Shown piece after piece: positions 38,392 through 53,017 of a stretch of DNA of 64,000 nucleotides. The notes beneath the pieces were generated by a model. It saw only the letters and a program-made list of their open reading frames with translations, searched no databases and was not told where the DNA came from. The stretch is from the NCBI RefSeq assembly GCF_027257155.1, contig NZ_JAPWDU010000003.1, positions 744,001 through 808,000 of the forward strand. Direction: 5' to 3'. Position 1 is the stretch's first letter. Every line of letters starts with the position of its first letter. Made by a program: the position numbers and the translations under genes. The DNA is from Cerasicoccus sp. TK19100. Its GTDB lineage: Bacteria; Verrucomicrobiota; Verrucomicrobiia; Opitutales; Cerasicoccaceae.

Positions 38392-41300
38392 ATGCGGCTC
38401 ATCGAACAAGCGACTCTCTACACCCGGTTGGGGGGCGCTGTTCAGTTGTATCAGGTGGACCTCTGCGATAACGGAGACGGCGAGTATGTCGTTAACTATC
38501 GATGGGGTAAGCTGGGCTCGGTTTACAAGGAGAGCTCGCGCACGGTATTTCCGGTCGCGTTGCCTGAGGCGCAGCGGATCTTTCAAGCGCTGGTCGAGGA
38601 GAAGCTGGCGGCGGGCTATGCCACGAGCCAGGAAGCATTGCAGGCACCTGTCGACGGTGAGGCAAGCCCTGCGGCAAACGAGCCCGTGGAAACGCCCAAT
38701 GCCGAGCCGACGACGCAACCGCCACCGCCCGGGATAAATACTCATCCACGCGCGGACACGGTCTTGGCTCATTTGGCAGCTGCGGCAGATGGCCGCTCGC
38801 CGCGCACGTCTTGGAAGCTGTCGCGCATCATTTGGCGCGCAGGGGAGCTAGGCTTGGTTGAAGCGGTTTCGCATCTGTTACGCATCGGGCTTAAGGGCGA
38901 GCATTTCCACGACTACTCCCTGCTTTGGTCGCTCGCACGCTTGGGTTCGGCGGACGCCATTCCCCTGCTTCGCGAGACGTTTGACGAAGCAAAGTTCCCC
39001 ACCGATGATTTGCAACGCGTCGCCGCCGAGGGTCTGATGCGCTGTCTGCCGGCTGCCGAACAGCGGGCCTTTGCCCAGCAGTTGGTCAAGCACCTGCCCG
39101 CGAAACTCAAGGACGAAGCGCTAACCGCCACGGCTGAGCAATTGGCCATGCGATTGGCTGAGGTTTGCCAGCGCAGTCAGGAGGCCTGCGATTTCCTTTA
39201 TGTCGTTTCGCTGCTGAGCGAGGTCCATCCGCCGGTGAGCGCGGGCATGGCGCTCTTTTGTCAGCAGGTGCCTTTGCGGAGTAATCTGTTCCGTGCGATT
39301 CGCTGGCTGTTCAAGGCGGCGGAATTGCGCCGTGACGCCGAGCTGTTTGCGGTGCTCAGCTACCGTTTTGAGACGAGTTACCAGAACTACAATTCCCCGC
39401 TCTGGGGTGACACCGTATACAAGGACGGGCAGGTGATTCGCAAGGTCAGTAAGGAGCTTAAAAAGCCGAACAGCCGTCTGGCGTATTCGGACAAAACACG
39501 GACGGCCTTTCGCCGCCGCGCGGCGAGGAGCATTCACCGCCTGGGAGACGCTGGCAGCACAGACTATGTCGCCATGGCCACAGCGCTGCTGCTCCAGTTC
39601 GATGACGACGTCGATGCCAAGCAGCCCTACAACACGACGAACTATGATTACAGTGGCGGCTGGCGCAATGTGGTGACGATACATACGCACTACGATGCCT
39701 ATTCTGAGTTCCTGGCATTCAACCAGATTTTACACGCCAACAGCCCGCGATTCGAGCTGGCCAAAAATCGCCTCAAATGGAAATGCCGCAGTGGTTATCG
39801 CCCCGGGCAGCCCCCGCCTGAGCAGCGCGAAGAAGCCTTCCCGGAGCTTTGGGACGACTCGCCGGATGCGGTGATCCGCCTGCTCGCGCAGTCCCGCTGC
39901 GAACGGGTGCACGAGTTTGCCGTGCGGGTTTTCCGCGCTAATTTGGAGGCCTTTGCGCCGCGTGTGAAAGTGGCCGATTTGATTAGCTGGTTGGCGCGCT
40001 CCAGCGAGCAAACGCAGACGCTCGCTCTGGACATCGCCATGGCGCAATTCAACCCCGAGAAGCCGTCCTACGAACTCGTGTTGGCCTTGCTGGATTGCGC
40101 GTTGGGCCGCGCCCGCGACACGGCGTTGGGCTGGGTGCGCGCGCAGCCGCAAAAGTTTTTGCCCGAGAGTTTGTTTACCGCTGCTTTGCTGACGTCCCCC
40201 TATGCGGACGTGCGTGCGACGGCATGCGAGCTCTTGCAACCTGATTCGCTCAGCGAATCAGCATGGGACATCGCCTTGGCGAGGGTGGTCTCGATCCTGA
40301 TCGATTCCGCGGCTGACGATGGTTTCGCCGAGCGTATCGACGCCGTGCGTGAAGCACTGGACGCCGTCGCGGGCCCGGCCATCGGGCGAATGCCCTTCAG
40401 CGTGATTGAGGATCTGCTGCGCCAGCCGGACGCGGCCTACCATGGCCTGGCGGCATCGTTTTTACAGGCGCGTCCGAGCGGCCCCTCGGAGTATCCATCA
40501 GGCACGTTGACGCTTCTCATAGAGAGCGCATCGCCCGTTGCACGGCGCATTGGCACGGAGCTGTTTGCACGGTTTAGCGATGAAGAACTGGCCCAGCGCC
40601 AGGACGTCGTGGCCAGCCTTTGCCTTTCGTCGCATGCGGAAATTCGTGATGCGGTGCAGGCAGTCGTGGCGCGCTTGGCGGCGCGCTTCCCGGACTTCGG
40701 GGGCGACTTGCTGGAGCGGTATTACCCGCTGCTGTTGCGCCGCGAATCTACGCCCGGTCTGCACGACGATTTGCTGCGCCTGATTCGAGCGCACTTGACG
40801 CCATTCCTTGATCGCGTGCCGGGCGAGTATGCCTTGCGCATGCTGCGCTGTCCTTACCCGGCGGGCAAGGAGCTCGGCTGGGAAATCCTGCAGCGCCACG
40901 GCGGGCTCGACTCACTGACGATGCGCGAGCGCGTCGAGCTCGGGGGCAACGACATCCAGCGCGTCCGCGCGGCGGTCTGCGATTGGTATCGCGCCAATGC
41001 GGCGACGGTGTTCAACGAACTCGCCGAGGCCGTGCGCCTGGTCGATGTTTCCTGGGACGACACGCAGGAGTTTGCCATGGACTGGCTGCGCCAAAACGTG
41101 GCCGAGGCGCAGTGGACGCCGGAAATCCTCGTCAGTCTCTGCGACAGCAATACGCCCAAGGTGCAGGCTTACGGCAAAGAGCTGATCACGCGCACCTTTA
41201 AGAGTGAGGACGGCCCGCGCTACCTGCTGCGGCTCAGCCAGCACCCGGCGGCGAGCATGCAGATCTTTGCGGTCAATTATCTGGAGAAATACGCGGCTGG

Positions 41301-41583
41301 CAATGTGCAGCGCCTGGCCGAGCTGGAAGACTTTTTCGTGACCGTGCTCGCGCTCATTGATCAGGGGCGCATCGCCAAGACGCGGGTGTTCGCATTCCTG
41401 CAAAAAGAGGGCGAGCAGTCCAGAGAAGCCGCAGCGATCGTCATGCGCATTCTGGGCCGCCACTCGGCCACGGTTTCCGTGCTCGATAAGGCGGCCTGTA
41501 TCGAGGCGATGGCAACGCTGCAAGCCGCGCATGCCGGGTTGGAGTCGCCGCTAACGCTCATGGAAACGGAGGCCGCCCGATGA
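38392..41583 (+). CDS. WGR-domain / HEAT-ARM repeat protein of retron system
   Basis: 1,063 residues. N-terminal WGR domain (about 1-80; YRWGKLG at 36-42), the nucleic-acid-binding module also seen in PARPs, then a Pro-rich linker (about 85-122). The rest is helical ARM/HEAT-like repeats (SRIIWRAGELGLVEAVSHLL, DYSLLWSLARLGSADAIPLL and many more). No catalytic motif was recognised. Its stop overlaps the start of the wH-SWIM gene (ATGA), and the msr-msd and RT follow, so it is probably an accessory or effector protein of the retron. The ARM partner of type XIII retrons is the nearest known match, from memory. Confidence 0.8.
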   Translation: MRLIEQATLYTRLGGAVQLYQVDLCDNGDGEYVVNYRWGKLGSVYKESSRTVFPVALPEAQRIFQALVEEKLAAGYATSQEALQAPVDGEASPAANEPVETPNAEPTTQPPPPGINTHPRADTVLAHLAAAADGRSPRTSWKLSRIIWRAGELGLVEAVSHLLRIGLKGEHFHDYSLLWSLARLGSADAIPLLRETFDEAKFPTDDLQRVAAEGLMRCLPAAEQRAFAQQLVKHLPAKLKDEALTATAEQLAMRLAEVCQRSQEACDFLYVVSLLSEVHPPVSAGMALFCQQVPLRSNLFRAIRWLFKAAELRRDAELFAVLSYRFETSYQNYNSPLWGDTVYKDGQVIRKVSKELKKPNSRLAYSDKTRTAFRRRAARSIHRLGDAGSTDYVAMATALLLQFDDDVDAKQPYNTTNYDYSGGWRNVVTIHTHYDAYSEFLAFNQILHANSPRFELAKNRLKWKCRSGYRPGQPPPEQREEAFPELWDDSPDAVIRLLAQSRCERVHEFAVRVFRANLEAFAPRVKVADLISWLARSSEQTQTLALDIAMAQFNPEKPSYELVLALLDCALGRARDTALGWVRAQPQKFLPESLFTAALLTSPYADVRATACELLQPDSLSESAWDIALARVVSILIDSAADDGFAERIDAVREALDAVAGPAIGRMPFSVIEDLLRQPDAAYHGLAASFLQARPSGPSEYPSGTLTLLIESASPVARRIGTELFARFSDEELAQRQDVVASLCLSSHAEIRDAVQAVVARLAARFPDFGGDLLERYYPLLLRRESTPGLHDDLLRLIRAHLTPFLDRVPGEYALRMLRCPYPAGKELGWEILQRHGGLDSLTMRERVELGGNDIQRVRAAVCDWYRANAATVFNELAEAVRLVDVSWDDTQEFAMDWLRQNVAEAQWTPEILVSLCDSNTPKVQAYGKELITRTFKSEDGPRYLLRLSQHPAASMQIFAVNYLEKYAAGNVQRLAELEDFFVTVLALIDQGRIAKTRVFAFLQKEGEQSREAAAIVMRILGRHSATVSVLDKAACIEAMATLQAAHAGLESPLTLMETEAAR

Positions 41584-43214
41584 ATTTCGACTACCAATAC
41601 CACGGCTCGTCATCGGTTTCCAACAGCGCTTCAGGCACGGGCATGAACTTTGTGCCGGATGCCACGCGCGAGCCGACGTTTTTCCGGGGCGAGCTCTCGC
41701 ACAAGCTGCCGTTTCGCGAAGCGATTTCCGCGCTGCACGATGTGGTCGTGTCGGACCTGCGCTGGAAACCCAAAGACCGCGAGGACTACAAGGCGTGGGC
41801 CCAGGAACAGGAGGATATCTGGATCGCCGAAGCCGTCGCGGAGGGCCAGCAGGCGCAAGCGCGCATGGCCGAGGTCAACGACCGCTTGATCGAAATGCGC
41901 TCCCAGCGCGCTGCGGTGATGCAGCCGTTTTACGAAGCGCGGCAGAAGTATTTTAACCACCTCTACCAGGTGAACAAGGATTACTGGTTCGTGCTCGATC
42001 CGGTGATCACCGTGCACCCCGATTGCGTGTTCTTCGAGTGCTTCAGCCAGGACGAATCGACCTATGGCCGCTTGGCCTGCAAATACGACGTCTTCCAAAA
42101 CGTGGGCGAGTTTGCCTGCGGCACGACGAACATCGATTACTCCGATTCGCTCTATCAGGAGTTTCAGAAAATTCGCGGCTATAAGACGACGCAGTTCGCG
42201 ATTGATCCCAGCGGCTTCGAGGCGAAGACCGAGGGCGAGGACGCCTACAAGGAAGTCAAAATCGACCTGCCCGACAGCTGGGTCCGCGGCTTCCTGCAGG
42301 TGAGCTCCGCCATGACGCTGCCTGCGGCCACGGTGGAGCTCCACCCGATGGACGTCCACAATATCTGCTTCATGCTGCGGCGGCATAAGGAAAAACTCGG
42401 GCCGCGTTCGCTGCGTTTTATCCTGAAGCCCGGCCAGCCTGTCACCCTGCGCTTTGATCCGTGGAACTACGAGGTGCGCTGCCCGCGCTCGATCTACCAT
42501 GGCAGCGAGGAGACCGAAGTGCGCATTTGGGGAAGGCGTCGTTTGCTGACCTTGCAGCGGCTCGTGCCGGTGGCCAAACGCTTCACCGTGCGCCTGCTCG
42601 GTTATGGCATGCCGTCGTTTTTCGAGGCTGACCTCGGCAACATGATCTACACGCTCGGCATCTCCGGGTGGACCGCCAACGACTGGTCGCGCATGGGCAA
42701 CTTCGACCTCATGGCGCCGCGCCAGCAGGTTGATCAGCACACAGTCGATCAGGTTTACGCCGGGCTCAAGGCCACGTGGTTTGCCGAGCCCGATCAACTC
42801 GCGTCGCGTCTCGGGCTGGACCGCAGCATCGTGCTCGGTGCCTTGTCACTGCTCACGCAAGCCGGGCGGGTGATCTTCGACGCGCATGACGGTGTTTACC
42901 GCGTGCGCGAGCTGAGCCGCGAGCCCTTGTCGTTCGAGCAATACCGCTACGCCAACGAGCGCGAACAGAAGGCCTACGACCTCGTCGCCGCTGGCGCTGC
43001 TCAAGTCTGGGTGGAGGACCAGCAAGGCCGCAAGCAGATGAAGGGGCGCACAAACTTTAACGGCTACGTGCACGAAACGAAGCTCACCATCGACGCCGAT
43101 GAGCGCATCGTGGCGGGGCAATGTAACTGTAACTTTTTTCAACAAAACGCATTGCGCCAGGGGCCATGCGAGCACATGCTCGCGCTCCGGATTGCGCATC
43201 AGCGAAAATCCTGA
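41580..43214 (+). CDS. Winged-helix SWIM zinc-finger protein of retron system
   Basis: 544 residues. A helical/coiled segment (about 70-130) is followed by a mixed central domain, a winged-helix region (about 400-455, ATWFAEPDQLASRLGLDRSI) and a C-terminal SWIM zinc finger CxCx12CxH made by Cys515, Cys517, Cys530 and His532. SWIM fingers bind DNA or protein partners. Overlaps the WGR/HEAT gene by ATGA; the msr-msd begins 20 nt after the stop. Fits the wH-SWIM partner of type XIII retrons. Confidence 0.82.
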   Translation: MNFDYQYHGSSSVSNSASGTGMNFVPDATREPTFFRGELSHKLPFREAISALHDVVVSDLRWKPKDREDYKAWAQEQEDIWIAEAVAEGQQAQARMAEVNDRLIEMRSQRAAVMQPFYEARQKYFNHLYQVNKDYWFVLDPVITVHPDCVFFECFSQDESTYGRLACKYDVFQNVGEFACGTTNIDYSDSLYQEFQKIRGYKTTQFAIDPSGFEAKTEGEDAYKEVKIDLPDSWVRGFLQVSSAMTLPAATVELHPMDVHNICFMLRRHKEKLGPRSLRFILKPGQPVTLRFDPWNYEVRCPRSIYHGSEETEVRIWGRRRLLTLQRLVPVAKRFTVRLLGYGMPSFFEADLGNMIYTLGISGWTANDWSRMGNFDLMAPRQQVDQHTVDQVYAGLKATWFAEPDQLASRLGLDRSIVLGALSLLTQAGRVIFDAHDGVYRVRELSREPLSFEQYRYANEREQKAYDLVAAGAAQVWVEDQQGRKQMKGRTNFNGYVHETKLTIDADERIVAGQCNCNFFQQNALRQGPCEHMLALRIAHQRKS

Positions 43215-43233
43215 TTCTTTGAAAACACTTTTA

Positions 43234-43458
43234 ACAGAGGGAAGGTCCGCGAGACTTTGCAATCCGAGCGGTGGATCGCCGTTCATGCATACAGCCTTGC
43301 GACGCATCACTGGTCCAATCGCGACTGTGCCGCCCGCACCCACCTACCGCGTTTACCGTTCAGGCGCCTTGCGCCTAAACAGCGGTAGGTGGGTCGGGCG
43401 GCTTGAGTTGATCGGCCCAGTCCTGAGACTACGCGAAAGTCGCGGACCTTCCCCTGTT
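43234..43458 (+). ncRNA. Retron msr-msd RNA
   Basis: Lies between wH-SWIM and RT genes, the standard place. Ends are complementary: a1 gggaaggtccgcg (43239-43251) pairs exactly with a2 (43441-43453), with extra pairing AACAG and ACTTT on the flanks. The 3' half holds a long msd-type hairpin: 43329-43350 pairs with 43382-43402 (21 bp with one bulge), with an inner hairpin aggcgc-ctt-gcgcct (43362-43376). The msr part (about 43252-43328) contains small stems such as cggtg-gat-cgccg. The branching G was not assigned. Confidence 0.88.
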
Positions 43459-43469
43459 GCCTTTGTCGC

Positions 43470-45062
43470 ATGATCTTTAACCGCCAGCCATCCAGCCGAG
43501 AGGAGCTCTACCAGCGCATCCGCGAGAGCTCGAAAGACGCGGTTATCCGCGAGGAAATGATCCGCCTTGGCTACTGGAAGCCCGACGCTGCCCAGCCGCA
43601 GCTCGCCAACGACTGGATGGAGGAGCATGCCGCGCTGACCAAGGAACTGCAGGAGCTCTACCGGCGCACCGCGCGCATGCAAAACCGCGAGCAGTTGCTG
43701 GCCGATATCCGCAAAAAGCGGATGGCGGAATCCCGCGAAAAGCAGAAGCAAAACAAGCTGCGCCGCGAGGCCGAGCGCAAGGCCCGCGCTGAGCGTTGGG
43801 CACAAACCCAGGCCAAGGACATTATCTACCTGGGCGAGGGCGTCTCGGGCGGCCTCAACGAACGCCAGACGCGGCCCGAGTTACTCGCGCAAAACCAGTT
43901 GCCGGTTTACATGGATGCCGAGTCGCTGGCGGTCGCCATGGGCATCAGCGTCGGCCAGCTGCGGTTCTTGTCCTTTCACCGCAAGGTCGCGAAGACGAGT
44001 CACTACCGCCGGTTTCTGTTGCCGAAAAAGTCCGGCGGCACACGCAAGATTTCCGCGCCGATGCCCCGCCTGAAGCGCCTGCAATATTGGATCCTGCACA
44101 CGCTGCTTTACCAGCTCGACATCAGCGAGCAGGCGCATGGATTCGTGCCGGAGCGCTCGATTAAAAGCAACGCCCAGGCCCACGTCGGGCAGGACGTCGT
44201 CATCAACCTCGACTTCAAAGACTTCTTCCCGACGATCACCTATCCGCGGGTCAAAGGCCTGTTTGGCAAGCTCGGCTACTCCGAGCAGATCGCGACGATT
44301 TTCGCGCTGCTCTGCACCGAGCCGGAGATTCAGGAAGCGCAGATGGACGGCGAGTCGTGGTTCATCCAGCAGGGCGAGCGCAAGCTGCCGCAAGGCGCGC
44401 CCACGAGCCCCGCGATTACGAACATCATCTGCCGCCGCTTCGACCGACGCCTCCAGGGTGCCGCGCAAAAGCTCGGTTTTCAATTTACCCGCTACGCCGA
44501 CGACTTGACGCTGTCCGCCTCGGGCGAGGCCGTGAAGGACCTCGGCCGCATGCTCTGGCAGACGCGTAAGATCATCGAGGAAGAGGGCTTCGTGCTCCAC
44601 CCCGACAAGCTCCGCGTCATGCGCAAAGGCATGCGGCAGGAGGTGACGGGCATCGTGGTCAATGAAGGTCTCGGCGTCGAGCGGCACAAGCTGCGCGCGT
44701 TCAAGGCGCTCCTGTTTCAGATCGAAAAGGACGGCCCCGTAGGCAAGTCCTGGCAGGGCCAGAGCGACAACCTGCTCGAGCGCATCACGGGCTACGCGGA
44801 CTTCATCGCCATGGTCGATCCGGCCAAGGGCAAGGCGTTCCAGACCCGCGTGGCCGCGATTTGTCAGAAGGAGCAATACCAGCGCCGCCCCAAGCCGGAG
44901 CCCAAGCCTAAGATTCCCCCGGCCCGGCGGCTCTCCAATCAGCCCCCGCCTTTGCCAACGACGCCGGGCAAGGCGTCACCGCCACCTTTGCCATCCAAGA
45001 CCTCTGGCTCGCCAACTCCCAAGAAATCCTTCTGGGAAAAGCTGATGTTCTGGAAGAGCTGA
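43470..45062 (+). CDS. Retron-type reverse transcriptase
   Basis: 530 residues. RT core about 140-470: NLDFKDFFP (Asp248, Asp251), PQGAPTSP, catalytic YADD at 342-345, plus the retron hallmarks NAQAH (NAxxH, 234-238) and EVTG (VTG, 392-394). It copies the msd part of the adjacent RNA into a branched DNA. Extras: a charged coiled-coil-like N-terminus (about 50-115, rich in Arg/Glu/Lys) and a Pro/Lys tail (about 472-530) ending in FWEKLMFWKS. Starts 11 nt after the msr-msd. Confidence 0.95.
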   Translation: MIFNRQPSSREELYQRIRESSKDAVIREEMIRLGYWKPDAAQPQLANDWMEEHAALTKELQELYRRTARMQNREQLLADIRKKRMAESREKQKQNKLRREAERKARAERWAQTQAKDIIYLGEGVSGGLNERQTRPELLAQNQLPVYMDAESLAVAMGISVGQLRFLSFHRKVAKTSHYRRFLLPKKSGGTRKISAPMPRLKRLQYWILHTLLYQLDISEQAHGFVPERSIKSNAQAHVGQDVVINLDFKDFFPTITYPRVKGLFGKLGYSEQIATIFALLCTEPEIQEAQMDGESWFIQQGERKLPQGAPTSPAITNIICRRFDRRLQGAAQKLGFQFTRYADDLTLSASGEAVKDLGRMLWQTRKIIEEEGFVLHPDKLRVMRKGMRQEVTGIVVNEGLGVERHKLRAFKALLFQIEKDGPVGKSWQGQSDNLLERITGYADFIAMVDPAKGKAFQTRVAAICQKEQYQRRPKPEPKPKIPPARRLSNQPPPLPTTPGKASPPPLPSKTSGSPTPKKSFWEKLMFWKS

Positions 45063-45168
45063 CCGCGACCATGGTGGCTTTCGCCAGTAGGGACGGTCTT
45101 TTACGGTCCCCAAAGCACGCCAGCCGAAGCAACTGAGCCAAAAGAACGTTTCCTACACTGGTGTTTCC

Positions 45169-45307
45169 AAAAAGCCTACTGCTTCTTTTTCAAAAAGCCC
45201 TATGCTGTGTTTTGGAAAAGACGCATGCTGTGTTTAGGAAACAACACTACTGTTGTTGAGGCAACACAGCCTGCTGTGTCGTCCTAACAACAGTAGTGGC
45301 TTTTTGA
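45169..45307. repeat. Tandem array of ~23-nt mini-hairpin units behind the RT gene
   Basis: Six consecutive units at 45169, 45192, 45216, 45239, 45262 and 45285, each 23 nt (one 24). Units share an A-rich or CAAC-type left arm, a core ending CTACTG or TGCTG, and a right arm complementary to the left (e.g. aaacaac-actact-gttgttg). Units 2, 3 and 5 share TGCTGTG. Units 4 and 6 also pair with each other: 45245-45257 is the exact reverse complement of 45286-45298, enclosing the hairpin cacag-cctg-ctgtg. A preceding partial unit may start near 45146. Confidence 0.65.
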
Positions 45308-48246: not shown

Positions 48247-50085
48247 ATGAGCACCACACATTGTTTGGGAATTGATTTGGGAACGAGTAACTCGGCGATG
48301 ACGCTGACCTCGATTGACGCGCGCGAGCTGCGCGTGCTGCCCGTCACGCAGGCTTTCGGGCCCAACAGCGTCGGCGAGCAATCCGGTTTGCCCTCCGCGC
48401 TCTACCTGCCGAACGACGGCGAGTTCGAGCCCGACGCCTTCAACGTGCCGGGGCTGGATGCCGAGCAGCCGGGCATCGTCGGCCGTTTTGCCCGCGAGCA
48501 TGGCGCGCAGGTCCCCGACCGTTTGGTGACGTCGGCCAAGAGCTGGCTTTGCCATAGCCAGATCGACCACCGTCAGCCGATCTTGCCGTGGGGATCGACT
48601 GTCGTGCCGACCGAGCAAAAGCTCTCTCCGATTACCGCCTCGCAGCGTTACCTCGAGGTACTCAAGGCAAGCTTTGCATCGCAAAGTGAATCGCTGGGCG
48701 CTTCGCTGGAGTCGACGCAAGTCGTGTTGACCGTGCCCGCCTCGTTTGACGAAGTCGCGCGCCAACTCACGCAGGAGGCCGCGCAAGCCGCGGGCCTCGG
48801 CGAAGTGATTTTAATGGAAGAGCCGCAGGCGGCGTTTTACGCGTGGCTCGAAAAGATGGGCGGCGATTGGCGCAACCACGTCACCCCGGGTGATCTCGTG
48901 TTGGTGTGCGATGTCGGCGGCGGCACGTCGGACTTCAGCCTGATCGCCGTGTCCGACGAAGGCGGCGACTTGCAACTGGAGCGCGTCAGCGTGGGTGAGC
49001 ACATCCTGCTCGGCGGCGACAACCTGGACCTCGCGCTGGCCTACGCGCTGCGTGCGCAGATCGAAGGAGAGGGCGCCTCGATTGACGACTGGCAATTCCT
49101 CGCGCTAATTCACGCCGCGCGCGTTGGCAAGGAACAGCTCTTTGAAGACTTATCGCTGGCCGAAGTGCAGGTGGCCGTGCCGTCGCGCGGTTCGTCGTTG
49201 TTTGCCGGGACCGTGAGCACGGCGCTGCGTCGCGAGCTGCTGGAGCAGATCGCGCTCGAAGGCTTTCTGCCGCTGACTGCGCCCACCGACATGCCCGCTG
49301 CGCAAACCGGTGGCGGCTTGAAGGAATTTGGCCTGTCCTACGCGTCAGACCCGGTCCTGAGTAAGCATCTCGCGCGCTTCCTCAAGCGGAGCCTCGACAG
49401 CGTGCGCTCCAGCGAAACGCTGTCTGCGCTGTTGCCGGACGAGGCCTTGCAAGGTGAGCTGATCGTGCCGTCGGCCGTGCTCTTTAACGGCGGTTTCTTT
49501 AACGCCGATCCGGCTCGCGCCCGCGTGCTGGAGCTGTTGCGCTCCTGGGCAGGCGCGCGCGAAGTCCGCGAGCTGGCGGGTAGCGACTACGCCTTGGCGG
49601 TGTCTTATGGTGCCTGTTATTACGGGCTGAATAAACTGTCCGGCCAAGGGGTTCGCATCAAGGCGGGTGCGTCGCACAGCTACTACCTCGGCCTGGAAAC
49701 GACGATGATGGCGATCCCGGGATTCAAGCCGCCGGTCAAGGGCGTGTGCGTGGTGCCGCAGGGTATGGAAGAGGGGACCGAAGCCGTGCTCGACGGGCAG
49801 GAGTTTGGCCTCGTGCTCGGGCAGGAGGTGAACTTCCGCTTCTTCAGCTCGACCGCCCGCGCCGGTGACGCCGTGGGCGCGGTCGTCGCGAACGCCGAGA
49901 AAGATTTGGAAGAAACTGCCTCGGTGCAAACGCAGTTGGAACCGGTCGACGGCATGTCGGTCGGCGAGGCTATCCCGGTCAAGCTCCACTCCCGTGTGAC
50001 CGAGCTTGGTGCGCTGGAACTGTGGATGCAGCACACGCGGAGCGAGGCCAAGTGGAAGCTGGAGTTCTCGGTGAGGACCGCGTGA
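48247..50085 (+). CDS. Divergent Hsp70-family protein 1
   Basis: 612 residues. Actin-type ATPase with phosphate-1 motif LGIDLGTSNSA at the N-terminus, AKSWLCH, LMEEPQAAFYAW, phosphate-2 motif CDVGGGTSDFSL and GGDNLDLALA. The adenosine motif is replaced by LFNGGFFNADPAR. The C-terminal part is a short beta-rich domain unlike the DnaK substrate domain. Part of the DUF2760-Hsp70-Hsp70 operon; the client is unknown. Contains an in-frame short palindrome (48671-48690). Confidence 0.9.
   Translation: MSTTHCLGIDLGTSNSAMTLTSIDARELRVLPVTQAFGPNSVGEQSGLPSALYLPNDGEFEPDAFNVPGLDAEQPGIVGRFAREHGAQVPDRLVTSAKSWLCHSQIDHRQPILPWGSTVVPTEQKLSPITASQRYLEVLKASFASQSESLGASLESTQVVLTVPASFDEVARQLTQEAAQAAGLGEVILMEEPQAAFYAWLEKMGGDWRNHVTPGDLVLVCDVGGGTSDFSLIAVSDEGGDLQLERVSVGEHILLGGDNLDLALAYALRAQIEGEGASIDDWQFLALIHAARVGKEQLFEDLSLAEVQVAVPSRGSSLFAGTVSTALRRELLEQIALEGFLPLTAPTDMPAAQTGGGLKEFGLSYASDPVLSKHLARFLKRSLDSVRSSETLSALLPDEALQGELIVPSAVLFNGGFFNADPARARVLELLRSWAGAREVRELAGSDYALAVSYGACYYGLNKLSGQGVRIKAGASHSYYLGLETTMMAIPGFKPPVKGVCVVPQGMEEGTEAVLDGQEFGLVLGQEVNFRFFSSTARAGDAVGAVVANAEKDLEETASVQTQLEPVDGMSVGEAIPVKLHSRVTELGALELWMQHTRSEAKWKLEFSVRTA
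48671..48690. repeat. Short palindrome inside hsp70-like gene 1
   Basis: gctttgc-atc-gcaaagt, reading ASFASQS in frame. Same family as the intergenic copies. Confidence 0.45.
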
Positions 50086-50094
50086 ATTTTTTCT

Positions 50095-50158
50095 CCCGCA
50101 GAGGCGCTGAGTCGCAGAGATATGGTAAATACACTCCGCGCTTCTGCGCCTCTGCGGG
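50095..50158. repeat. 13-bp inverted repeat between the two hsp70-like genes
   Basis: cccgcagaggcgc (50095-50107) and its exact complement gcgcctctgcggg (50146-50158). The CTCTGCG-rich wording also occurs near 26909-26930 (tttgcgtctctgcgtctt), so it belongs to a dispersed repeat. It could also attenuate readthrough within the operon. Confidence 0.6.
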
Positions 50159-50182
50159 ATTTTCTTGTGATACATTATTTTA

Positions 50183-53017
50183 ATGCCTGCTCGTTACACC
50201 ATAGGAATTGATCTCGGCACGTCGAATTGTGCCTTGGCCTACATTGATACCGAGGCACCGACGCCGCGGACGCAGCTGCTCGAAGCGCCGCAGTATGAGT
50301 CGCTGGGTAAGTGGCGTGAGGATGCCGTGTTGCCGTCGTTCTGTTATTTCTTAACGGACGATGAGGCGCGTGAGCTGCATGGCGAAGAGCAGGCGGCGGA
50401 TCAGATTTCGGACTGGTCGCGCTCGAGGGTCGTGGGGCTTTGGGCGCGGGAAATGGCGTCACTGGCGCCGGAGCGCGTCGCGTATTCCGCGAAGTCTTGG
50501 CTTTGCCATCGCGGGGTGGATCGCGAGAGCAAACTGCTGCCTTGGCAGTCGACCGTGTTGCCCGCTGAGCGCAAGCTGTCGCCGGTGGATGTATCGGCTG
50601 CCTACCTGAGCTACCTGCGCACCGTGTGGGATCAGCAGATGGCGGGCAAGGATAAGACGGCGCGCTTTGACCGGCAGGACATCGTGATCACGGTGCCGGC
50701 TTCGTTCGACAGTGATGCGCAGCGACTGACTCAGGAGGCGGCTGAGCGCGCGGGCTACCCGGCCTCGACGCGTTTGCTGGAAGAGCCACAGGCGGCGTTT
50801 TACGCCTGGCTGGAGCGTCATCCGGGTGCGGAAGAGCTGGCAGCAGCGTTCCCTAAGTTGGACGAGCGACCGGAGCTGGTGCTGGTGTGCGATATCGGCG
50901 GCGGAACGTCGGACTTTAGCTTGTTTGAAGTCACGGCGCCGGAGCAGGCAGGCGCGCTCCCCGCGATTCGACGGCTTGCCGTGAGTGAGCACATTTTGCT
51001 GGGGGGGGACAATCTGGACCTCGCACTAGCCAAGACGATGGAGGCACGGCTGACTGATGGCGGCGAACTTTCAACGAGCGCCTGGGCGCAACTGCTTTCG
51101 CAATGCCGCAGCTTGAAGGAACGGGTGCTGGCCGAGGCCTCCCCCGATCGCGATAAGAAGCTGCCGGTCTCGGTGACCGAAGGGGGATCTAGTTTGTTCG
51201 CCTCGGCGCGCAGTGCGGATATCACGCAAGGTGAGTTGCTGGACCTGTTGCTCGATGGCTTTTTCCCGGATTGCCCGGCGGACGCCAAGCCTACGCGCGA
51301 GCAGGGTGGTATTCGGGAGATGGGGCTGCCCTATGCACAAGACTCGGCGATCACGCGTCACTTGGCGGGCTTTTTGAACGGCCGGCGCGTCGATGCCTTG
51401 CTCTTTAATGGCGGCACGGTGGCGTCCTCGATTTTACGCGAGCGCCTTTGCTCGCAAGCGGCAAAGTGGCAGGATGAAGCGCAACCTAGCGTGCTGGCCA
51501 ACGACGAGCCCCACCTGGCCGTGGCCCGTGGCGCGGCGCACTACCGCTACTGCGAGCGCGAGGCGGCCGGGGTGACGATTTCCGGCGGCAGCGGCCATGC
51601 GATTTATTTGGAAATCGAAGGCGTGGCCCCCAAGAAACTGCGCGGTAAGAAAAAGAAGAAGCAAGCCGCCGCGATGCGGACCGGCGTTTGCATCCTGCCG
51701 CAAGGCGCGGAGATCGAATCGCCGCAGCGACTTGTTGAGCACGACATCCAACTGTTGGTTGACCGGCCGGTGCGCTTTCAGGCGTGGACTTCGCCTTCGC
51801 GGCCGGATGACGCGGTGGGCGAGGTTGTTGATTTGAACGACGACGCCTTTCACCGATTGCCTGCGTTGTCGACGCTGGCTCAGTTGCCGCCTACGGTGGA
51901 GAAGCCCGCTGACGGCAAGCTCGCGGTTCACCTGATTGCCGAACTGAACAACCTTGGTCTGCTGCAAGTGGTTTGCGAGAGCGTGCGCCGCATAGGGGAG
52001 CGCCAGCGTCGCTGGGCGCTGGAGTTCAATCTTCGAGAAAAGCTGACTGGCGACGGCGCGCCGCAGAAGTCAACTGGTGGCGAAGACACCGGCGTATCGA
52101 CCGAAGATCTGCAACGCGCACAGGCGATGGTAGTTGCTTGCTTTGGGATGCAAAGTAACTCTGCCGTGCAAAGTGAACCGGCGCGCTTACTTAAAAATTT
52201 AGAGGAAGCGCTGCGGCTGAAACGCAAGGAGTGGAACACTGCGCTGCTGCGAAAGCTATGGGAGCCCTTGGGCGAGGCGCTGACCAAGCGCGACATTTCG
52301 CTGGAGCACGAGCTGTCCTGGCTGATGGCGGCGGGCTTTGCGCTGCGGCCGGGCTACGGACACGCCTTTGATCAATACCGCATGCAGCGCCTGTGGTTTG
52401 TGCATGAGCTGGGGCTCGCGCACGACCGCGACAAGGCGATCCGCGAGCAGTTGTTTATCCTGTGGCGACGCACGGCAGGTGGGCTTGACCGCGAACAGCA
52501 GCTCACGCTTTACCGATACTGGCAGGAGAAAATTTACGAAGACACCAAACAGGGCTACGAACCGCTGCGCATGGCGGGTGCCCTGGAGCTGTTGCCCATT
52601 GAGGAACGCACCAAGCTTGCGCAGCATTGCCTGGCGCTGATCTCGGAGCGCGCGGAGAAATACTGTGATCACGCGATCTGGGCTCTGGGCCGTTTGCTCA
52701 GCCGCACGCCGCTTTATGGCGGCGAGGGCGCGATTCTGCCGGATGAATTAGTGGACGAGACATTTGGCCAATTGGAACCTTTGGCGTGGACCGGTTCGCT
52801 GGCTGGGCTGACCACCACCTTCGCGCAAGCCGCGCGCCGCCTCGATAGCCGGGACCACGATTTGCCGCCTGGGTTGCGTGAGCGTATTCTGACCAAGCTG
52901 CGCAGCTCGGGCGCGAGTGCGGAGCAAATCGAGCGCATTGAGACCTTTGTTCCCCTGGAGGAGAAAGATCGCCAGCAGCTCTTTGGCGAGTCACTGCCCG
53001 TTGGGCTACAGTGGTAG
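50183..53017 (+). CDS. Divergent Hsp70-family protein 2 with DUF3731 C-terminal domain
   Basis: 944 residues. The N-terminal ~600 residues repeat the Hsp70-like ATPase of protein 1: GIDLGTSNCALAY, AKSWLCHRGVD, LLEEPQAAFYAWLE, CDIGGGTSDFSLF, LLGGDNLDLALA. A lysine run KLRGKKKKKQ lies near 490. The C-terminal ~300 residues are helical and match the DUF3731 type (FGMQSNS, LWEPLGEALTKRDISLEHEL, YWQEKIYEDTKQGYEPLRMA). The two chaperones are paralogues from one ancestor. Last gene of the operon. Carries the in-frame palindromic stretch at 52141-52175. Confidence 0.9.
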   Translation: MPARYTIGIDLGTSNCALAYIDTEAPTPRTQLLEAPQYESLGKWREDAVLPSFCYFLTDDEARELHGEEQAADQISDWSRSRVVGLWAREMASLAPERVAYSAKSWLCHRGVDRESKLLPWQSTVLPAERKLSPVDVSAAYLSYLRTVWDQQMAGKDKTARFDRQDIVITVPASFDSDAQRLTQEAAERAGYPASTRLLEEPQAAFYAWLERHPGAEELAAAFPKLDERPELVLVCDIGGGTSDFSLFEVTAPEQAGALPAIRRLAVSEHILLGGDNLDLALAKTMEARLTDGGELSTSAWAQLLSQCRSLKERVLAEASPDRDKKLPVSVTEGGSSLFASARSADITQGELLDLLLDGFFPDCPADAKPTREQGGIREMGLPYAQDSAITRHLAGFLNGRRVDALLFNGGTVASSILRERLCSQAAKWQDEAQPSVLANDEPHLAVARGAAHYRYCEREAAGVTISGGSGHAIYLEIEGVAPKKLRGKKKKKQAAAMRTGVCILPQGAEIESPQRLVEHDIQLLVDRPVRFQAWTSPSRPDDAVGEVVDLNDDAFHRLPALSTLAQLPPTVEKPADGKLAVHLIAELNNLGLLQVVCESVRRIGERQRRWALEFNLREKLTGDGAPQKSTGGEDTGVSTEDLQRAQAMVVACFGMQSNSAVQSEPARLLKNLEEALRLKRKEWNTALLRKLWEPLGEALTKRDISLEHELSWLMAAGFALRPGYGHAFDQYRMQRLWFVHELGLAHDRDKAIREQLFILWRRTAGGLDREQQLTLYRYWQEKIYEDTKQGYEPLRMAGALELLPIEERTKLAQHCLALISERAEKYCDHAIWALGRLLSRTPLYGGEGAILPDELVDETFGQLEPLAWTGSLAGLTTTFAQAARRLDSRDHDLPPGLRERILTKLRSSGASAEQIERIETFVPLEEKDRQQLFGESLPVGLQW
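52141..52175. repeat. Compound short palindrome inside hsp70-like gene 2
   Basis: ctttgggatgcaaag, overlapping gcaaagtaactctgc, then gcaaagtgaa; in frame it reads FGMQSNSAVQSE. Related to 25751-25765 (gcaaagtaactttgc). Confidence 0.45.

Follow-up and report, generated by a model that had tools for sequence, protein, structure and literature searches.

A structured RNA gene upstream of a reverse transcriptase (RT) gene in Cerasicoccus sp. TK19100 is, at a probability that we put near 0.88, the msr-msd gene of a type XIII retron, whose RT would make branched msDNA and whose complex of msDNA, RT, SWIM protein, and WGR/HEAT protein would react to phage. The element lies in a 64,000-nucleotide stretch of DNA, the whole of which was analyzed and is called the window throughout, and its analysis provides retron type XIII with a covariation-backed RNA structure, exact coordinates, and predicted msDNA ends (Table 1).

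Table 1. Features of the operon and its RNA, in window positions; the last row gives positions within other loci
Feature	Position	Strand	Basis and description
WGR_XIII protein, 1063 aa	38392..41583	+	PADLOC; N-terminal WGR-like part and helical repeats
SWIM_XIII protein, 544 aa	41580..43214	+	PADLOC, Pfam, and model; predicted PCNA-like fold 35-364, SWIM finger 504-536
msr-msd RNA gene	43232-43459	+	Fold, covariation, covariance model
a1 arm	43232..43258	+	Six outer pairs, a bulged A, the perfect 14-bp run, and GACUUU at the inner end; folds, arm-swap
UUGC, predicted branch site	43257..43260	+	G43259 is the presumed priming guanosine
msr hairpin, 8 bp	43266..43284	+	98.7% of cells paired; two-sided changes in 4/8 pairs
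msd hairpin	43309..43426	+	Basal helix (alignment A1 columns 71-82 with 176-187), 21-bp stem, inner hairpin 43362-43376
Hypervariable part of msd stem	43336..43395	+	Arms 43336-43351 and 43380-43395; species and unit comparisons
CGAA (43434-43437) and a2 arm	43434..43459	+	Reverse transcription would start near C43434
Reverse transcriptase, 530 aa	43470..45062	+	PADLOC; N-terminal extension, flexible C-terminal tail ending in KKSFWEKLMFWKS
Tandem loci	L004 5478-5948; L005 5352-5887; L006 5443-5911; L007 5441-5878; L025 767-1248

Operon and reverse transcriptase

The open reading frames of the window place the operon on the + strand at 38392-45062 in the order WGR/HEAT, SWIM, RNA, and RT. Assignment of the locus to retron type XIII is supported by the sequences of its three proteins, all of which match PADLOC models of that type (RT_XIII, 1.1e-187; SWIM_XIII, 6.8e-232; WGR_XIII, 2.6e-298), so that an RT_XIII stands together with the SWIM_XIII and WGR/HEAT_XIII partners by which membership is recognized. 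Retron type XIII has been reported as a PADLOC call in a Variovorax genome (PMC11953036). According to Pfam, the SWIM finger of the SWIM protein scores slightly above its cutoff, and the WGR family reaches 19.8 bits on the WGR_XIII protein, below its cutoff of 22. A fold match for the WGR/HEAT protein was set aside, the best one (Z 13.8 over 127 residues) being a designed repeat that reflects a common solenoid arrangement only; the other matches listed had Z values of 7.9 to 10.7 and mostly large root mean square deviations. Downstream of the RT gene, 3.3 copies of a 23-nt repeat occupy 45161-45235, and two adjacent genes at 48247-53017, which by eye resemble Hsp70 relatives, have 82 to 84% DNA identity in Cerasicoccus maritimus.

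A profile search of the PDB with the RT was led by the RTs of retrons Ec86 (3e-69) and Ec67, and the protein, which belongs with the retron clade, carries NAxxH, YADD, and VTG. Across an alignment of 14 RTs, including L010 and L013 as distant rows, YADD and TG are invariant, and the 12 core type XIII RTs share N-A-x-x-H, with G for N in the two distant ones. NAxxH and VTG are motifs that we take, in part, to be marks of retron RTs. In 12 of 14 loci, the RT has a flexible linker at its end followed by a short peptide of hydrophobic or aromatic character (44883-45062 in the window), which may resemble clamp-binding peptides; the exceptions are L024, with a membrane-like tail, and L008, which is frame-broken. 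YADD and regions X and Y are described marks of retron RTs (PMC6868368).

We consider it quite improbable that the RNA is copied by a nonretron route such as that of DRT2, in which repeat cDNA is made from a pseudoknotted RNA and for which a1/a2 would be only a stabilizing stem. DRT2 also pairs an RT with a neighboring structured RNA (PMC12039810), and the window RT does match the Drt2 model, but the match is weak (2.1e-08 and 33.8 bits, far below the cutoff of 390), RT_XIII is the best-matching model, the PDB search is led by retron RTs with Drt2 far lower, and a1/a2 ends combined with a long msd hairpin are the plan of a retron (PMC6868368).

Homologous loci

Once L001, L018, and L019 had been removed as duplicates of the loci of the window, L002, and L003, 25 distinct loci had a match to SWIM as well as to RT, and 14 of these carry RNA of the window type, as 19 units in total. 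Verrucomicrobiota account for eight of the RNA-bearing loci and Saprospiraceae for four, the other two coming from a cyanobacterial MAG and a Methylobacterium plasmid record, and gene order is identical in all 14 within the stretch covered for each. Model R1 at an E value of 1 gave no match in 11 of the 25 (L009-L014 and L027-L031). One of these, L029, has at 542-700 a shorter, divergent RNA of similar plan before a more distant RT (29.8 bits with model R2, described below), and its stem and the window stem have CTACCGCG in common. At the locus from the cyanobacterial MAG (L008, 2967-5724), the SWIM gene and the RNA are separated by about 3 kb holding two ORFs, one of which resembles a VWA-domain protein. 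The nearest relatives are found in Cerasicoccus frondis and C. maritimus, with RTs 96% and 86% identical to that of the window. As the C. maritimus operon is flanked on both sides by the same sequences as in the window, it was inherited in place there; of the four Cerasicoccus genomes, one had no match.

Fold and ends of the RNA

The whole element folds at -128.8 kcal/mol, compared with a shuffle mean of -87.05 (SD 4.83; z -8.64), and none of 200 shuffles was as low. Its ends, a1 (43239-43252) and a2 (43440-43453), are 100% complementary over 14 nt, and no other inverted repeat of that length or more occurs within 43150-43550; an earlier note on this DNA, written from the sequence, had claimed perfect pairing, which stands, over 13 bp, a length that the inverted-repeat search extends to 14. 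The minimum-energy fold has six extra outer pairs (43232-43237 with 43454-43459) past a bulged A43238. Pairing of the arms by themselves offers an alternative inner end, with 12 bp, a 2-nt bulge, and GACUUU/AAAGUC flush with UUGC. Each of the 19 units has at least three flush pairs next to UUGC, the third being T-A in 8 and C-G in 11.

Within the msd, a stem at 43329-43350/43382-43402 consists of 8 bp (43329-43336 with 43395-43402), a bulged C43337, and 13 bp (43338-43350 with 43382-43394); above it are a bulged A43381 and four further pairs, and an inner 6-bp hairpin is formed by 43362-43367/43371-43376. The earlier note had correctly described a 21-bp stem with one bulge and the inner 6-bp hairpin, and its placement of the element 11 nt before the RT start agrees with the ATG at 43470, 11 nt after 43458. 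Rfam at its own cutoffs holds no family for the window RNA, and candidates obtained at a loose threshold were discarded as microRNA models scoring far below their cutoffs.

UUGC occurs in 19/19 units with its G just inside a1, and CGAA occurs in 19/19 units, 175 to 180 nt downstream of TTGC, a constancy that is partly built in because both motifs served to locate the units: these were first found with a TTGC-containing pattern, and CGAA was an anchor sought 130 to 230 nt downstream, with another CGAA left unused in two units. The window UUGC differs from TAGC, CAGA, CAGC, GAGC, and ACGC, which are known retron branch contexts (PMC6868368).

Covariation and covariance models

Judged by sequence comparison, the RNA fold is maintained by compensatory changes across distant bacteria from four phyla. 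When arms were swapped among units, the unit's own a1/a2 partner ranked first in 15 of 19 (exceptions L005b, L006b, L007a, and L023) and its own msd-stem partner in 17 of 19 (exceptions L005b and L006b); the top rival in these exceptions was a close relative, save for a1/a2 of L005b, where L020 leads by 0.1 kcal/mol. For the msr hairpin, the basal msd, and the inner hairpin in alignment A1, 95.8% of 456 cells are paired and 90 cells are changed on both sides, compared with 28.1 in shuffles (0/500 as high), a test inflated by related sequences, and with 6 to 11 in slid controls, which are affected less. Further pair types, at 30 compared with 27.9 in shuffles, were not above them (92/500). RNAalifold on A1 left a1/a2 and the apical stem unpaired because their letters diverge too far to align, and the case for those helices is therefore made by the arm-swap test and by the three Cerasicoccus species, in which 10 of the 11 variable msd pairs stay standard throughout and the remaining one is broken in C. 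frondis.

Model R2, a held-out covariance model made from 10 units and no Verrucomicrobiota, had one match only in the 64-kb window, covering 43239-43456 end to end (121.2 bits; E 1e-24), and it recovered all nine verrucomicrobial units. The earlier note had read the element as the msr-msd of a retron, to be checked by compensatory changes and by a covariance model from homologous loci. Both checks come out in its favor, with the changes present in the trio and among the 19 covarying units and the window unit found by R2, and the reading itself is strengthened by the arm-swap test, the covariation, the PADLOC type XIII matches, and the RT motifs. The msr-msd RNA lies next to the RT and has the pairing a1/a2 ends and the msd hairpin of a retron RNA.

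Tandem units and genomic distribution

Two complete msr-msd units stand in tandem before one RT in 5 of the 14 loci, the window having one unit. Within the tandem pairs the msr parts are alike, and in 5/5 the two units diverge most in their apical msd arms. A tree that leaves out the apical stem joins the L025 pair with good support (97/95) and the L004 pair with weaker support (91/81), and the units of L005-L007 form one weakly supported group (81/82), a pattern in these sequences that suggests at least two duplications of the unit or homogenization of its copies.

The tandem arrangement bears on two further explanations. That the RNA acts in cis as a regulatory leader or attenuator for the RT gene, and does not serve as a template for reverse transcription, is very unlikely: it does sit between two genes of one operon, directly 5' of the RT start, but no terminator-like site occurs on the + strand within 43050-43500, the five tandem loci hold complete second units, and the 175- to 180-nt frame is constant over four phyla. 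No promoter was found 5' of the RNA by consensus, which says little for Verrucomicrobiota. We give almost no credence to the stem-loops being a mobile or repeat element (REP-like or MITE-like) present by chance, for which tandem copies in some loci would speak, as R1 has a single match in the window's own genome, none in 33 of 36 relatives' genomes and one each in the other 3; of 387 Verrucomicrobiota genomes it matches 3, all with an RT match too, and no copies distant from RT genes were seen. RT matches occurred in four of those 387 genomes, and the three R1-matching genomes were in the R1 training set, so the survey demonstrates specificity, not discovery. Among viral contigs, no relatives were found.

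A hypervariable stem tip

In sequence comparisons, the tip of the msd stem (its apical ~16 bp) is hypervariable yet mostly compensated. Between the window and C. frondis, 18/76 positions of 43329-43404 differ, compared with 2/179 in the remaining intergenic sequence (Fisher P = 8e-9) and 92/1593 in the RT gene (P = 7e-7), and between the window and C. maritimus the counts are 16/76 and 4/179 (P = 2e-6); the boundaries of the stem region were picked after data inspection, and these P values are therefore optimistic. Relative to C. maritimus, the stem region changes no faster than the RT gene (308/1596 columns). In the Saprospiraceae, L007 unit a and L005 unit a agree at 68/70 msr-side positions but at 5/16 apical ones; in the apical part, L007 unit a matches L006 unit b at 15/16, and it looks from these sequences as if the stem tip was swapped between copies.

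Two ideas about the content of the tip were rejected. A common apical-stem motif, CTACC, occurs in 7/16 stems (reached by 1/1000 dinucleotide shuffles), in 6/14 stems of a thinned set (12/1000), and in 4/9 with one stem per lineage (169/1000), so ancestry may explain the sharing. As for mimicry of the host, CCACCTACCGCG has two occurrences in its own genome, of which the window is one, and the reversed control has four.

The SWIM protein

An AF2 model of the SWIM protein made with 13 homologues, L024 being left out (mean pLDDT, 65.6; pTM, 0.59), is firm in its second half (ten-residue means of 70 to 95 over 241-360) and less sure in its first. All 50 matches listed by Foldseek for this model are clamps or clamp complexes (best E 1.5e-7), and VIA-align places residues 35-364 on PCNA 1-243 (Z 16.8; 2.7 Å; 218 residues). 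A complete PCNA-like clamp fold is thus predicted for the protein, the model having both domains. PF00705 (PCNA) had no match at an E value of 10 in its own genome, a Pfam scan of the 13 SWIM members found no clamp family, leaving the fold unannotated by Pfam, and a PDB profile search with the SWIM protein had no clamp among its matches; as there is no PCNA sequence match, we speak of a clamp-like fold and not of a clamp family member. Plasmid relatives of the SWIM gene lie beside DUF6493 genes in L040 (7809-14142) and L041 (7782-12070), with no retron RT annotated nearby in either of these two loci, and perhaps represent a nonretron form of the SWIM-HEAT pair.

Discussion

As a retron, the locus would work as follows. 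Pairing of a1 with a2 in the transcript would present UUGC, and the RT would prime from the 2'-OH of G43259, the predicted branch point, and copy the msd from about C43434 toward the msr. The product would be a branched RNA-DNA molecule whose DNA part, one long hairpin, is estimated at ~110 to 125 nt. By analogy, the msDNA, RT, SWIM protein, and WGR/HEAT protein would form a complex that is harmless until a phage factor disturbs it, and the same analogy makes the retron probably an anti-phage system; in Eco8, phage SSB is sensed by the msDNA (PMC13158370).

A more specific proposal, which we advance tentatively and regard as less likely than the retron reading it builds on, is that type XIII joins an msDNA sensor, which evolves fast and is duplicated in some loci, to a PCNA-like clamp and is thereby linked to phage replication. 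The apical ~16-bp msd duplex would be the variable recognition element, present in two versions at tandem loci, the RT would dock through its hydrophobic C-terminal peptide on a clamp formed by the SWIM protein, and phage replication would be watched or blocked through that clamp. Where phage recognition may lie is suggested by the hypervariable tip of the stem and by the tandem units. The predicted fold offers a concrete hypothesis for a partner hitherto named by its zinc finger alone, and a PCNA-like clamp in the SWIM protein, if the model is right, would link a retron to DNA replication. Among the open-literature matches listed in our search, which lay outside the main retron classification and census papers, none recognizably reports an RNA for type XIII, a tandem arrangement of msr-msd units, or a retron partner with a clamp-like fold.

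Several known systems frame these results. The window shares with PADLOC type XIII (RT_XIII, SWIM_XIII, and WGR_XIII or HEAT-ARM_XIII) all three proteins and the expected operon. The SWIM model has the two-domain fold of PCNA sliding clamps without a sequence match to them, and it differs from PCNA by a long inserted helix around 68-131 and by an extra C-terminal part with the SWIM finger. Retron Ec86 (Eco1) has the closest solved RT by profile (3e-69), whereas its effectors are others and its RNA is another sequence. The Eco1 RNA has ACG right before a2, as does that of the window. The myxobacterial retrons Mx162 and Sa163 resemble the window in their N-terminally extended RT, long msd hairpin, and a1/a2 plan (PMC6868368). 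Their branch context is CAGC, in contrast to UUGC in the window, and Mx162 has a 71-nt msr and a 162-nt msd (PMC6868368), compared with 177 nt from G43259 to G43435 in the window.
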